From assembly GCA_020833645.1 (NCBI GenBank), contig JAJHRQ010000004.1, forward strand, positions 1 to 64,000: 64,000 bases of DNA, in the 5' to 3' direction. Each line of letters starts with the position of its first letter. Positions within the stretch are counted from its first letter, which is position 1. Both the position numbers and the translations under genes were made by a program. Below the pieces are notes generated by a model. That model had not been told where the DNA came from and did not search any database. It was given only the letters and a program-made list of their open reading frames with translations. Positions 1,514 to 5,427 of this stretch are shown here, piece after piece. Origin of the DNA: Thermocrinis sp. GTDB taxonomy: Bacteria > Aquificota > Aquificia > Aquificales > Aquificaceae.

Positions 1514-3143
1514 AGGTTATGCCTTTCTGATCCTCTCCTCAGTATTTTTTGTCGGTGTAGTTATTGCAGGGTTATTTCATCTCAAGCAGGTTGGAATTTA
1601 TTATTTTGCCCTCTTGTTTGTCTCGGGCCTTCTGTTTGCAGTGTCCTTTTTGAAGTTTCTCTGGGATAGCCTGAGGGCACTCTACCGAGACTACAAAAAG
1701 TTCAACAGCCTTCCGGTCTTTCTCTTTGAGTTTTTTGCCAGTCTAAAGCTTGCCATATTTTTGATGATCGCCATAGGCATCCTCTCCATGCTGGGTTCCA
1801 CCTACATAGAACAGAACAGACCCTTTGAGTTTTATGTGAATAAGTACGGTCCGGAGAAGGCGGAGTGGTTCTGGAAACTATGGCTAAACGATGTTTTCCA
1901 CTCGTGGTATTACATACTGTTTGTTGCTCTGCTTGCCCTAAACCTGATCCTCTGCTCTTACAAGAGACTGCCTAGTGTTTGGAAGCATACCTTCTCAAAG
2001 GAGAGGTTTCAAAAATTGGACGAGCACTTAGAAAAACACCTAAAACCCATAGAGGTCAAGACGAACCCGGACAAGGAAAAGGTCATAAGATTTCTCCAGT
2101 CAAAGGGTTTTAAGGTCTATGCGGAGGAAGAAGGAAACAGGATTTACCTTTACGGAGAAAAGGGTAAGTACTCCCGGCTTGGGGTTTATGTGGTCCATAT
2201 AGCCCTCCTTGTGATAATGGCAGGGGGACTAATAGACGGACTCTTTGGAAAGAGGGGCATGGTCATTGTGCCAGAGGGTGCAAGAGAAGACAGAATGACA
2301 AGCCTTAGCCAGGATAAGGTCTATAAGCTTCCCTTTCAAATTAAGGTGAACGCCTTTCACATAGTTTCCTACGAAGAGGAGGCAAAGAGAAAGGGTAAAG
2401 AGTTTAGAGGGGACCCAAAGGTAAAGGATGCCATTGCAAGCTTTGAAAGTGAAATAGAGATCATAGAGAACGGCAGAGTGGTCGCCAAAGGAACAGTGGC
2501 TGTAAACGACCCCTTTGAGTACGGAACCTACAGAATATTCCAAGCTAGCTACGGGCTAACTGGCAGTGCGGGCTATGTCAAGCTCTCTGTCTTTGACAGA
2601 AGGACCCTTCCGGAAGACCCTCAAAGGGCGCTTTTGGGAACGGTGGAGCTCAGGGCTGGGCAGGTGGCAGAGTTCAAAGACATGCTCCTTTCCATTGACA
2701 GGTCTGTGTTGAACTTAGAAAACCCAGAGGACACACAGCAGCTAAAGCCTGCCCTGATGATAAAGGTGCTAAAGGATGGAAAGTCCTACGATGTGCCAGT
2801 TATTTACTCTCCTGAGCTTACCGTCTTTGCCTTCTTTCAACTTAAGGAGCTCGCTGACTTTCCTTACATATTCTTCTTAGAGGACTTTAGACCTCAATTT
2901 TTTAGTGGCCTGCAGGTTTCCTACAGCCCTGGTACCCCTTTGATCTGGGGAGGTTCTATACTTTTGGTTTTGGGACTGATCTTAGCCTTCTACACCATTC
3001 ACCGTAAAGTTTGGGCAAGGATAGAAGGAAACAGCCTTAAAATATCCTTTTGGTCCCACAAGCTACGGGAAGAGTTCAGAAGGAGCTTTATAAAGGACCT
3101 GGAGGAGCTCGGTTATGTGGAAAAGAATCTTGGAGAGCGGTAA
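1506..3143 (+). CDS. resB: Cytochrome c biogenesis protein ResB (Ccs1)
   Basis: Membrane component of System II cytochrome c maturation, which with CcsA/ResC carries heme across the membrane and attaches it to apocytochrome. The roughly 545-residue product has N-terminal membrane helices, the family segment LKLAIFLMIAIG followed by STYIEQNRP, another helix at WYYILFVALLALNLIL, then VYVVHIALLVIMAGGLI before a large periplasmic domain, and a C-terminal helix (SILLVLGLILAFYTI). I take the ATG at 1506 (a TTG at 1500 is also open). It overlaps the SpoVG-like gene and the YqhA-like gene. The partner CcsA is not in the window. Confidence 0.9.
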   Translation: MFKGYAFLILSSVFFVGVVIAGLFHLKQVGIYYFALLFVSGLLFAVSFLKFLWDSLRALYRDYKKFNSLPVFLFEFFASLKLAIFLMIAIGILSMLGSTYIEQNRPFEFYVNKYGPEKAEWFWKLWLNDVFHSWYYILFVALLALNLILCSYKRLPSVWKHTFSKERFQKLDEHLEKHLKPIEVKTNPDKEKVIRFLQSKGFKVYAEEEGNRIYLYGEKGKYSRLGVYVVHIALLVIMAGGLIDGLFGKRGMVIVPEGAREDRMTSLSQDKVYKLPFQIKVNAFHIVSYEEEAKRKGKEFRGDPKVKDAIASFESEIEIIENGRVVAKGTVAVNDPFEYGTYRIFQASYGLTGSAGYVKLSVFDRRTLPEDPQRALLGTVELRAGQVAEFKDMLLSIDRSVLNLENPEDTQQLKPALMIKVLKDGKSYDVPVIYSPELTVFAFFQLKELADFPYIFFLEDFRPQFFSGLQVSYSPGTPLIWGGSILLVLGLILAFYTIHRKVWARIEGNSLKISFWSHKLREEFRRSFIKDLEELGYVEKNLGER

Positions 3144-3576
3144 GGCAATAGCCCTCTTACCGTCCCTTAGTTTGTTTGTGGGCGCAGTCTTTTTGAGTTT
3201 TTACGGCATTTATATCTTGCTTGAGACCCTATACAAGGCATTTACTGACGAAATAGCCAGAGACAGCACCATCCTTGCCACCAAGTTTATATCGGTTATG
3301 GACATTCACCTCCTTTCTGTGGTTCTGTACATCTTTGCGGTAGGGCTCTATGAACTTTTCGTGGGAAAGCTTCAAGTGCCCGAGTGGCTAAAGATAGAAA
3401 ACATAGACCAGTTAAAGTCCAAGCTCGCCAGCGTGATTGTGCTTATCCTTGCCATCACCTTTACAAAGAAATTTGTAGAGTGGAAAAACCCGGTGGATAC
3501 TCTCCTCTTTGGTTTGGCAGTATCTGCGGTTATCGCGGTGCTTATCTTTTACTACAAAATCAAATCGGAACACTGA
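3115..3576 (+). CDS. YqhA/UPF0114 family membrane protein
   Basis: A 153-residue integral membrane protein resembling the YqhA (UPF0114) family, whose function is not established. Four hydrophobic segments are visible: LLPSLSLFVGAVFLSFYGIY, LLSVVLYIFAVGLYELFV, LASVIVLILAITF and LLFGLAVSAVIAVLIFYY. The ELFVGKLQVPEWLKI stretch with its following short soluble loop is typical of the family. It starts inside the resB 3' end (29-bp overlap) and stops 3 nt before ispE, so it belongs to the same transcript. Confidence 0.7.
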   Translation: MWKRILESGKAIALLPSLSLFVGAVFLSFYGIYILLETLYKAFTDEIARDSTILATKFISVMDIHLLSVVLYIFAVGLYELFVGKLQVPEWLKIENIDQLKSKLASVIVLILAITFTKKFVEWKNPVDTLLFGLAVSAVIAVLIFYYKIKSEH

Positions 3577-3579
3577 GTC

Positions 3580-4470
3580 ATGGAGCTTCTGTCCCCTGCC
3601 AAGTTGAACTTGGGACTTTGGCTTTTAGGAAAGCGCCAAGATAACTACCATGAGATTTTTACCATCTTTCAGGCTATAAGCCTCTTTGACAGGATAGAGA
3701 TTTTAGAAAAAGGTCCACTGCGGGTGGAAACCTCCAAAGGCATACCCCAAGAGGAAAATTTGGTTTATAAAGCCCTAAGGCTCATGGAAAGAGCCCTAGG
3801 CACCGACTTGGAGGTACAGGTTTACATAGAGAAGGTTATCCCGATAGGCGGAGGCTTGGGTGGCGGTTCATCTAATGTGGCAACCGTTTTAATGGGCGTC
3901 AACAAACTCTTGGGCGAGCCCCTGAGCTTTGAAGAGCTAAAAGCTATAGCCTCTGCGGTCTCATCCGATGCGGTATTCTTTTTGTACGGTGGTTCTGCTG
4001 TGGGCACTGGTAGAGGAGAAAAGATCCAGCCTATTGACCTTCCCAAGTTTAAGTTTGTGGTGGTCTATCCGGGGGTTGCGGTATCCACTAAGAAAATCTA
4101 CTCCCTGGTAGGTGAAAAACAATTGACACCCAACTTGGACCGTGATAAAATAATAAATTGCTTAGTAAGGGGTGAGCTCGAGGTTCTGGAGAACAGGTTG
4201 GGCGAGCTGTGTGCAGAAGAGGTGCCCCAAGTGGGCGAAGTGGTTAGGTTCTTGAGGAGTGTGGGTAAGAGGCCTCTGGTTAGTGGAAGTGGTTCTTGCG
4301 TGTTCTTTGTGGGAGAATCGGAAGAGAGCCTAAGAAGGGCTTGTCAGCTGAGAGGTTGGCAAGTCTATGAGGTGGAAAGCTTGGGGTGTAGCTCAACTGG
4401 CAGAGCACCGGACTTTGGATCCGGGGGCTCCTGGTTCGAGTCCAGGCACCCCAGCTTTCCCCTCCCATAA
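3580..4470 (+). CDS. ispE: 4-diphosphocytidyl-2-C-methyl-D-erythritol kinase (IspE), frame continuing through tRNA-Gln
   Basis: GHMP kinase of the MEP isoprenoid pathway, phosphorylating CDP-ME. Motifs: SPAKLNLGL (5-13, with the catalytic Lys), the ATP-binding loop PIGGGLGGGSSN (88-99), catalytic Asp130 in VSSDAVFF, and the C-terminal VSGSGSCVF. The family domain ends around residue 267 (RGWQVYEVES). There is no stop codon there: the frame continues through the complete tRNA-Gln gene (4382-4454) and ends at TAA 4468-4470, adding about 28 residues encoded by tRNA sequence. The kinase call is secure; whether the extended tail is ever made is open. Confidence 0.93.
   Translation: MELLSPAKLNLGLWLLGKRQDNYHEIFTIFQAISLFDRIEILEKGPLRVETSKGIPQEENLVYKALRLMERALGTDLEVQVYIEKVIPIGGGLGGGSSNVATVLMGVNKLLGEPLSFEELKAIASAVSSDAVFFLYGGSAVGTGRGEKIQPIDLPKFKFVVVYPGVAVSTKKIYSLVGEKQLTPNLDRDKIINCLVRGELEVLENRLGELCAEEVPQVGEVVRFLRSVGKRPLVSGSGSCVFFVGESEESLRRACQLRGWQVYEVESLGCSSTGRAPDFGSGGSWFESRHPSFPLP
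4382..4454 (+). tRNA. tRNA-Gln (anticodon TTG)
   Basis: A complete 73-nt cloverleaf: acceptor stem TGGGGTG/CACCCCA, D arm GCTC/GAGC, anticodon stem CCGGA/TCCGG with loop CTTTGGA (anticodon TTG), T arm CCTGG-TTCGAGT-CCAGG, discriminator G4454. CCA is not encoded (next bases are CTT). It lies entirely within the ispE reading frame on the same strand and ahead of prs, so it is probably cut from the ispE transcript unless it has its own promoter inside ispE. Confidence 0.97.
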
Positions 4471-4488
4471 AAACTAAGAGGTTTGATT

Positions 4489-5427
4489 ATGATCGGTTCT
4501 ATTAAACTTTTGACCGGTACCAGCAATCAAAATCTGGCAAAGGAAGTTTCTGAGTATTTAAACATCCCTCTCTCTGATGCGATCGTCTCACGCTTTAGCG
4601 ACGGAGAGATAAGGGTCCAGATAAACGAGTCTATGAGGGGCGAGGATGTTTTTGTGATCCAGTCCCTCTGCCCTCCCATAAACGAGAGCATAATGGAGCT
4701 CCTTCTCATCTTGGATGCCATAAAGAGGGCTTCCGCTGGTAGGATTACCGCGGTGATACCTTATTATGCCTACGCAAGACAGGACAGAAAGGACAAGCCG
4801 AGGGTTCCCATAAGCGCAAGGCTTTTGGCAGACCTTATAACGGTTGCTGGTGCCCAAAGGGTGGTGGTGGTGGATTTGCATTCTCCTCAAATTCAGGGGT
4901 TTTTTAACATACCCGTTGATAATTTACACGCATTGGGCGTTCTTTATGATTACCTCAAGGATAAGGTGGATAGTAGTAATACGGTGGTGGTTTCTCCCGA
5001 CGCGGGAGGTGTGGAAAGGGCAAGGCTACTTGCCAACAAAATAGGTTGTCCCATAGCCATAATCTACAAAAGAAGACCCGAACCCAATGTGGCGGAGGTT
5101 CTTGACATAATAGGGGATGTAAAGGGTAAAAGGGCTATAATCGTTGATGACATAATAGACACCGCGGGTACCGTGTGTGCTGCCAGTGAGCTGTTGCTTT
5201 CAAAGGGTGCCAGTAGGGTGGATGTGGTTGCTACCCATGGACTGTTGTCTGGTCCTGCGGTGGAAAGACTAAGGAAATCGTCCATAGAGGAGGTGGTTGT
5301 AACCAACACCATACCAGTAGGACACAAGAACCTTGAAAAGCTCAAGGTTGTATCCATAGCTCCCCTCATAGGGGAAGCCATAAGAAGGATCCACGAAGGA
5401 GAATCTGTTAGCATGCTATTTACATAA
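4489..5427 (+). CDS. prs: Ribose-phosphate pyrophosphokinase
   Basis: Makes PRPP from ribose-5-phosphate and ATP for purine, pyrimidine, His and Trp synthesis. Family motifs: TGTSNQNLA near the N-terminus, FSDGEIRVQI, the Mg/ATP region VVVDLHSPQIQGFF, VVSPDAGGVERA, and the PRPP loop VDDIIDTAGT. About 312 residues, the normal length. The ATG at 4489 has AGAGG 7 nt upstream, preferred over a TTG two codons earlier. It follows tRNA-Gln and precedes rplY by 11 nt. Confidence 0.97.
   Translation: MIGSIKLLTGTSNQNLAKEVSEYLNIPLSDAIVSRFSDGEIRVQINESMRGEDVFVIQSLCPPINESIMELLLILDAIKRASAGRITAVIPYYAYARQDRKDKPRVPISARLLADLITVAGAQRVVVVDLHSPQIQGFFNIPVDNLHALGVLYDYLKDKVDSSNTVVVSPDAGGVERARLLANKIGCPIAIIYKRRPEPNVAEVLDIIGDVKGKRAIIVDDIIDTAGTVCAASELLLSKGASRVDVVATHGLLSGPAVERLRKSSIEEVVVTNTIPVGHKNLEKLKVVSIAPLIGEAIRRIHEGESVSMLFT

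Follow-up and report, generated by a model that had tools for sequence, protein, structure and literature searches.

The ispE reading frame crosses a complete tRNA-Gln gene in Thermocrinis and ends within or beyond that tRNA in related Aquificaceae

The closest described bacterial system is that of selB and selC: in Alphaproteobacteria and others the tRNA-Sec gene (selC) lies in the selB reading frame, an arrangement described there as the first case of a tRNA lying within a protein ORF of bacteria (Mukai 2021, PMC8124441). The same paper cites tRNA-Lys in Armadillidium cox1 as a mitochondrial overlap of a tRNA with a coding sequence, and PMC10941002 cites Ojala 1981 for tRNA punctuation in mitochondria. 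A further point of reference is AntiFam, a collection of spurious protein translations (PMC9710616). Our literature search found no publication treating ispE, prs, tRNA-Gln and operon together.

The window analysed here is a stretch of 64,000 nucleotides from Thermocrinis sp. (assembly GCA_020833645.1, contig JAJHRQ010000004.1, positions 1 to 64,000, forward strand). Its ispE ORF at 3580–4470 (plus strand) encodes 296 amino acids without an in-frame stop codon until the TAA at 4468–4470, and a whole tRNA-Gln(UUG) gene is nested in it on the same strand. The tRNA spans 4382–4454 (73 nt) according to Rfam and 4382–4455 according to ARAGORN, and the TAA starts 14 nt past its last base. The initial annotation had described a frame open across all 73 nt and an IspE domain ending near residue 267, and both descriptions hold. 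The protein matches the NCBIfam IspE profile TIGR00154 above the cut-off (180.8 bits), and the solved A. aeolicus IspE (PDB 2v2q) aligns over residues 2–266 (E = 2e-77), its last residue matching E266; across the core, the protein thus agrees with IspE in both family profile and fold. In an AlphaFold model with 28 relatives in the alignment, the folded core extends to residue 267 and residues 271–296 are disordered (pLDDT about 36). We therefore regard the enzyme as otherwise normal, with a tail that is predicted to be disordered and that was correctly placed in frame by the initial annotation, although it has 29 residues (268–296) and not 28. The spacer ahead of the tRNA is one nucleotide long rather than 2 or 5, which puts the UAG at U8-A9-G10 of the tRNA out of frame and carries the ispE frame across the entire gene; once RNase P cuts, position 4381 would be the in-frame 3′-terminal U of the ispE piece. 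This tRNA-Gln(UUG) is the sole tRNA-Gln found in the incomplete assembly, as it is in the surveyed complete relatives.

Table 1. Features of the ispE junction in the window and of the other overlapping loci in the same genome
Feature	Position	Strand	Basis or remark
UPF0114 membrane protein, 3 nt ahead of ispE	3115..3576	+	PF03350; same operon by spacing
ispE core, residues 1-267, 4-diphosphocytidyl-2-C-methyl-D-erythritol kinase	3580..4380	+	TIGR00154, PDB 2v2q, predicted fold
5′ leader arm GAGG-(T)-GGAAAGC, in last ispE codons	4369..4380	+	Pairs with 3′ trailer, z -4.75
One-nt spacer, T, between codon S267 and tRNA-Gln nt 1	4381	+	
29-codon extension of ispE frame across tRNA-Gln, ending in TAA 4468-4470	4381..4470	+	Predicted disordered
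tRNA-Gln(UUG), no encoded CCA, U1-A72	4382..4454	+	Rfam, ARAGORN
TAG at U8-A9-G10 of tRNA-Gln, out of ispE frame here	4389..4391	+	ispE stop in 39/47 Aquificaceae
3′ trailer arm G73-CTTTCC-CCTC	4454..4464	+	Pairs with leader arm
AAGAGGT, Shine-Dalgarno-like, for prs	4476..4482	+	Sequence
prs, ribose-phosphate diphosphokinase, ATG 18 nt past ispE stop	4489..5427	+	NCBIfam NF002320, 449.6 bits
tRNA-Pro(CGG), wholly in amidohydrolase (deaminase family) frame	L417, G000 C39:69500-73500	minus	
tRNA-Leu(UAA), wholly in pabC-like class IV aminotransferase frame	L158/L418, G000 C21:12393-12477	minus	
pnp stop at U8-A9-G10 of tRNA-Thr(CGU)	L135/L416, G000 C41:3092-3163	minus	

We compared the ispE junction in the 129 of 136 phylum genomes that had a match, with G000 denoting this genome, g1 its own genus (inferred to be Thermocrinis) and f1 its own family (inferred to be Aquificaceae). 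No stop codon precedes the tRNA at 4382, and ispE reads through tRNA-Gln in all seven g1 genomes; two of the six others are single-contig, and the six have IspE proteins 64–98% identical to that of the window. Sequencing error as the source of the read-through was rejected on this agreement. Comparison with related Aquificaceae, as the initial annotation had proposed, extends the overlap to the family: in 47 of the 47 f1 genomes that keep a tRNA-Gln behind ispE, the ispE stop falls within the tRNA or past it. The stop is the UAG at U8-A9-G10 (the conserved U8-A9 followed by G10) in 39 of these, giving protein ends such as SYGV and SWLGV, while the other eight (the seven g1 genomes and G046) have a 1-nt spacer and read through completely. 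In every U8-stop genome the spacer measures 2 or 5 nt (2 modulo 3), which brings that stop into the ispE frame, a regularity to be expected if the phase in which the tRNA is entered matters to translation. Outside f1 the overlap occurs in 1/40 genomes of family f2, 0/6 of f3 and 0/20 of f5, and so in 1/60 of those from the families with RNA-based RNase P; in these outgroups ispE has its own stop codon 0–17 nt ahead of tRNA-Gln (39/40, 6/6 and 20/20, respectively). In the genera g2 (Aquifex-like) and g5, ispE is not followed by a tRNA, and the IspE proteins end normally. G046 branches in the IspE tree as the sister of the remaining g7 genomes (plus g6), with g1 sister to that group. Read-through would thus have arisen either twice or only once, in the latter case with a single-nucleotide change restoring the U8 stop in the remaining g7 genomes.

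The neighbourhood itself is, on sequence comparison, ancient and widespread: among 80 IspE loci chosen by sequence from many phyla, a tRNA-Gln lies at most 400 nt downstream of ispE in 52. Ten of the 80 overlap, including one from Aquificaceae and four from Acinetobacter with an overlap of 2 nt; in the Acinetobacter loci, the ispE stop codon takes in bases 1 and 2 of the predicted tRNA-Gln. An independent parallel is found in Aminicenantes (contig JAGLQA010000482.1, L484), where ispE reads across the whole tRNA-Gln. Being so old and so common, adjacency alone is no sign of a metabolic connection. This frequency, together with further overlapping pairs of which none is isoprenoid-related (pnp/Thr, deaminase/Pro and pabC-like/Leu), leads us to regard the earlier suggestion that an isoprenoid enzyme is coupled to tRNA supply as unsupported.

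The tRNA surveys drew on loci and regions and covered, in this genome, 33 tRNAs with upstream sequence. Four of them, Gln, Pro(CGG), Leu(UAA) and Thr(CGU), are overlapped by a verified upstream coding sequence. At the tRNA-Pro(CGG) locus the ATG of a waaA-like gene, identified by eye, starts on the discriminator base A73 in the four out of four genus genomes with sequence, so that cutting out the tRNA would cost a stop codon as well as a start codon; here the protein frames overlap, unlike the ispE stop and the prs start codon, which are separated by 18 nt. In g7, tRNA-Pro begins immediately after the stop codon of the deaminase gene (11/11 genomes). The nesting of tRNA-Leu(UAA) in the pabC-like frame recurs in G053 and G056; a dcd-like gene comes next downstream. 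The pnp/tRNA-Thr overlap is seen in g1, g4, g7 and g9 (L239, L243–L246, L234); the stop is at U8-A9-G10 in most genera, but g4 and G051 have it at tRNA positions 36–38, where it takes in the final base of the anticodon. In this genome pnp/tRNA-Thr(CGU) is followed by a dut-like gene. As for the other surveyed genomes, G036 has three verified overlaps (ispE, pnp and lpxK), the Aquifex-like G001 at most one, of a single nucleotide, G099 one (M16 peptidase) and G122 one (a tadA-like deaminase stop within tRNA-Ser(CGA), L366) plus IS481-type run-ins; the survey of G107 gave no verified tRNA/CDS overlap. In G036 the lpxK stop lies within tRNA-Lys(CUU) (L271). Whole tRNAs enclosed by verified ordinary genes occur only in this genome among the six surveyed. 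Three long overlaps in G122 (f5) were rejected as ordinary coding sequences, being IS481-type transposase frames that enter tRNAs (two were scanned, and the third was judged alike by its start). These near-identical transposase genes stand directly 5′ of three tRNAs (L367, L370 and L300), a placement that suggests insertion beside tRNA genes. Several short ORFs in tRNA clusters were dismissed as chance.

The housekeeping RNase P of Aquificaceae is probably the protein-only HARP, judging by its presence: this genome has a TIGR03875 match (G000:C15:87948-88505), and a search of it for RNase P RNA (RF00010) found none. HARP is present in f1 and f3 and RNase P RNA in f2, f4 and f5, and no genome is over the cut-off for both. 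HARP as the sole cause of the overlap is not supported, since f3 has HARP without an ispE overlap and G104 has RNase P RNA with one, and since the surveyed f2 and f5 genomes each have one overlap elsewhere. The initial annotation had argued that RNase P cleavage leaves an ispE mRNA without a stop codon. This does follow from the sequence, and a possible rescue system is encoded in the genus, with tmRNA over the cut-off in G051–G054; a tmRNA search of the present assembly (88% complete) gave no hit above the cut-off. The loss is not special to this genome, however, because tRNA excision would have the same effect in every one of the 47 Aquificaceae with an ispE stop in or beyond the tRNA.

The order UPF0114-ispE-tRNA-prs-rplY-pth runs in one direction with tight packing, and a consensus scan of the ispE–prs junction detected no recognisable promoter or terminator; together these features favour co-transcription of ispE, tRNA-Gln and prs. 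On this basis the reading that we prefer, and hold to be probable, is that an ancient ispE–tRNA-Gln–prs operon lost its spacer in Aquificaceae, and that one transcript would now become either an intact ispE mRNA or a tRNA precursor, with nonstop fragments left to rescue. Spacer erosion would have let the ispE frame enter tRNA-Gln, with U8-A9-G10 of the tRNA becoming the stop; in g1, a spacer of 1 nt would then put ispE out of phase with this stop and extend it to the TAA. Should translation be completed ahead of processing, IspE would be made with a harmless disordered tail (3–4 extra residues in the relatives). Should the tRNA fold and HARP cut at 4381/4382 first, tRNA-Gln would be produced, and the ispE piece, ending GAA AGC U without a stop codon, would go to tmRNA rescue or degradation. 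Cleavage may be slowed by a leader–trailer helix that spans the cut site. Rather than a regulatory link under selection, the overlap is most likely a tolerated by-product of compaction, as erosion of a spacer in a compact genome would be tolerated given a harmless tail and a means of rescue.

The helix consists of 7 bp plus 4 more with a single bulged U and extends the acceptor stem over the cut site (fold z-score −4.75, for the window sequence alone). The pairing is the strongest among the 33 tRNAs here (−10.9, versus −3.4 for the next), and native leader–trailer pairs do better than inter-genus swaps (−7.2 versus −4.2). The codon of Ser267, which lies in the helix, is AGY in 36/36 genomes (gene body, 40%), and conservation is higher over the last 30 nt of ispE than over the sequence ahead of them; part of both effects may reflect protein constraint and shared descent. 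At the sequence level, the conserved end, the codon choice and the helix hint at selection beyond tolerance. We hypothesise that the helix is a brake, with HARP cutting inefficiently as long as the trailer is untrimmed and the helix closed; the HARP of Thermocrinis ruber leaves a pre-tRNA uncut when its acceptor stem is 9 bp long (PMC9051087). Overlap and helix could then amount to a selected switch, making IspE synthesis and tRNA-Gln maturation alternative fates in a ratio set by translation load or tRNA folding. We regard such a switch as rather unlikely. The helix is clear in f3 and most genera of f1, both HARP clades, whereas f2 and f5, the clades with RNase P RNA, lack it (P 0.001 for genus means, uncorrected for phylogeny), but this contrast is possibly one evolutionary event, and f3 combines helix and HARP with no overlap. 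In addition, some genera (g10) have a weak helix, its arms bulge at −1 or more, and the brake is not general, as the overlapping tRNAs Thr, Pro and Leu of this genome are without a helix. General leader–trailer pairing in all HARP pre-tRNAs is likewise unsupported for f1 as a whole (P 0.17), a tendency being seen only in the Aquifex-like G001 and f3. In G001, the leaders of 20% of tRNAs pair well to the 3′ CCA region, compared to 4% in shuffles and 2–3% in two genomes with RNase P RNA, perhaps a consequence of HARP not reading the CCA end.

The unusual conservation of the last 30 nt of ispE would also suit a promoter inside its 3′ end, an alternative that the initial annotation had put forward: such a promoter would make most of the tRNA-Gln and prs transcripts, leaving the ispE mRNA often uncut and its tail translated. 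By eye, TTGTCA at 4341 followed by a TAT/TCT-rich stretch is a possible weak promoter. However, the consensus promoter scan found none, the TATGAG-like element is not kept in relatives and the flanking genes are packed in one direction, and we judge independent transcription to be unlikely, even if an internal promoter of a type outside the simple scan could make tRNA-Gln and prs separately from ispE. The ispE product itself might end otherwise than by read-through. A −1 slip on GGGG (tRNA nt 2–5), with the tRNA as a downstream roadblock, would lead to termination at U8-A9-G10 and an ancestral-like end, ...VESLGV; GGG re-pairs perfectly, the codons GTG TAG follow, and SYGV and SWLGV are the ends of the relatives' proteins. 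But re-pairing is possible for the P-site tRNA only and it is the tRNA that fixes the G-run, rather than any selection for slippage, which makes this the most improbable of the endings considered, barely credible in our view. Hardly more plausible is a bacterial form of tRNA punctuation, in which HARP excision would leave an in-frame U (g1) or UA (sister genera), 3′ adenylation would complete it to UAA, and the helix would time the cut for a set product ratio. In 20/20 g1, g6 and g7 genomes versus 1/27 other f1 genomes, a cut ispE message would indeed finish on an in-frame U or UA, but in this genome the junction ends in CA for pnp, in A for the deaminase and in a complete codon for the pabC-like gene, and these genes would gain no stop by adenylation; we thus rate it very unlikely.

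A whole bacterial family carries stop codons of housekeeping genes inside tRNA genes that are apparently single-copy, with some tRNAs wholly within frames. One RNA would be forced to choose between message and tRNA, a situation otherwise known mainly from mitochondria and selB–selC. Since HARP, a minimal protein enzyme, has taken the place of RNase P RNA in this family, junctions of the ispE type are natural substrates for studying competition among HARP, ribosome and rescue. They are also of practical concern, as annotation pipelines are likely to mis-end genes such as this ispE.

Among known systems, the tail (GCSSTGRAPDFGSGGSWFESRHP) resembles the peptides obtained by conceptual translation of tRNA genes, which AntiFam reportedly includes; it differs in continuing a verified coding frame rather than forming a stand-alone ORF. 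The likeness to mitochondria lies in tRNAs between or inside the coding sequences of a polycistronic RNA, a protein-only RNase P and message ends made by tRNA excision. Unlike in mitochondria, most overlapping loci here would gain no stop codon by polyadenylation, and tmRNA rescue is available. The selB/selC system is closer: in both cases a whole tRNA lies in the 3′ end of a coding sequence on the same strand, the tail corresponds to a translation of the tRNA, relatives terminate within the tRNA or at a new codon ahead of it, and processing would leave a nonstop message. The ispE/tRNA-Gln pair shares its core features, a tRNA inside an ORF and recurrence (in 7/7 genomes of the genus and in G046). 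It departs from selB/selC in that the tRNA is an elongator and the only tRNA-Gln found, the neighbours are unrelated housekeeping genes and the ispE stop does not overlap the next start. What is new relative to selB/selC is the type of tRNA, the recurring stop at U8-A9-G10, which is the commonest state here, the presence of several loci per genome and the background of a protein-only RNase P, HARP.
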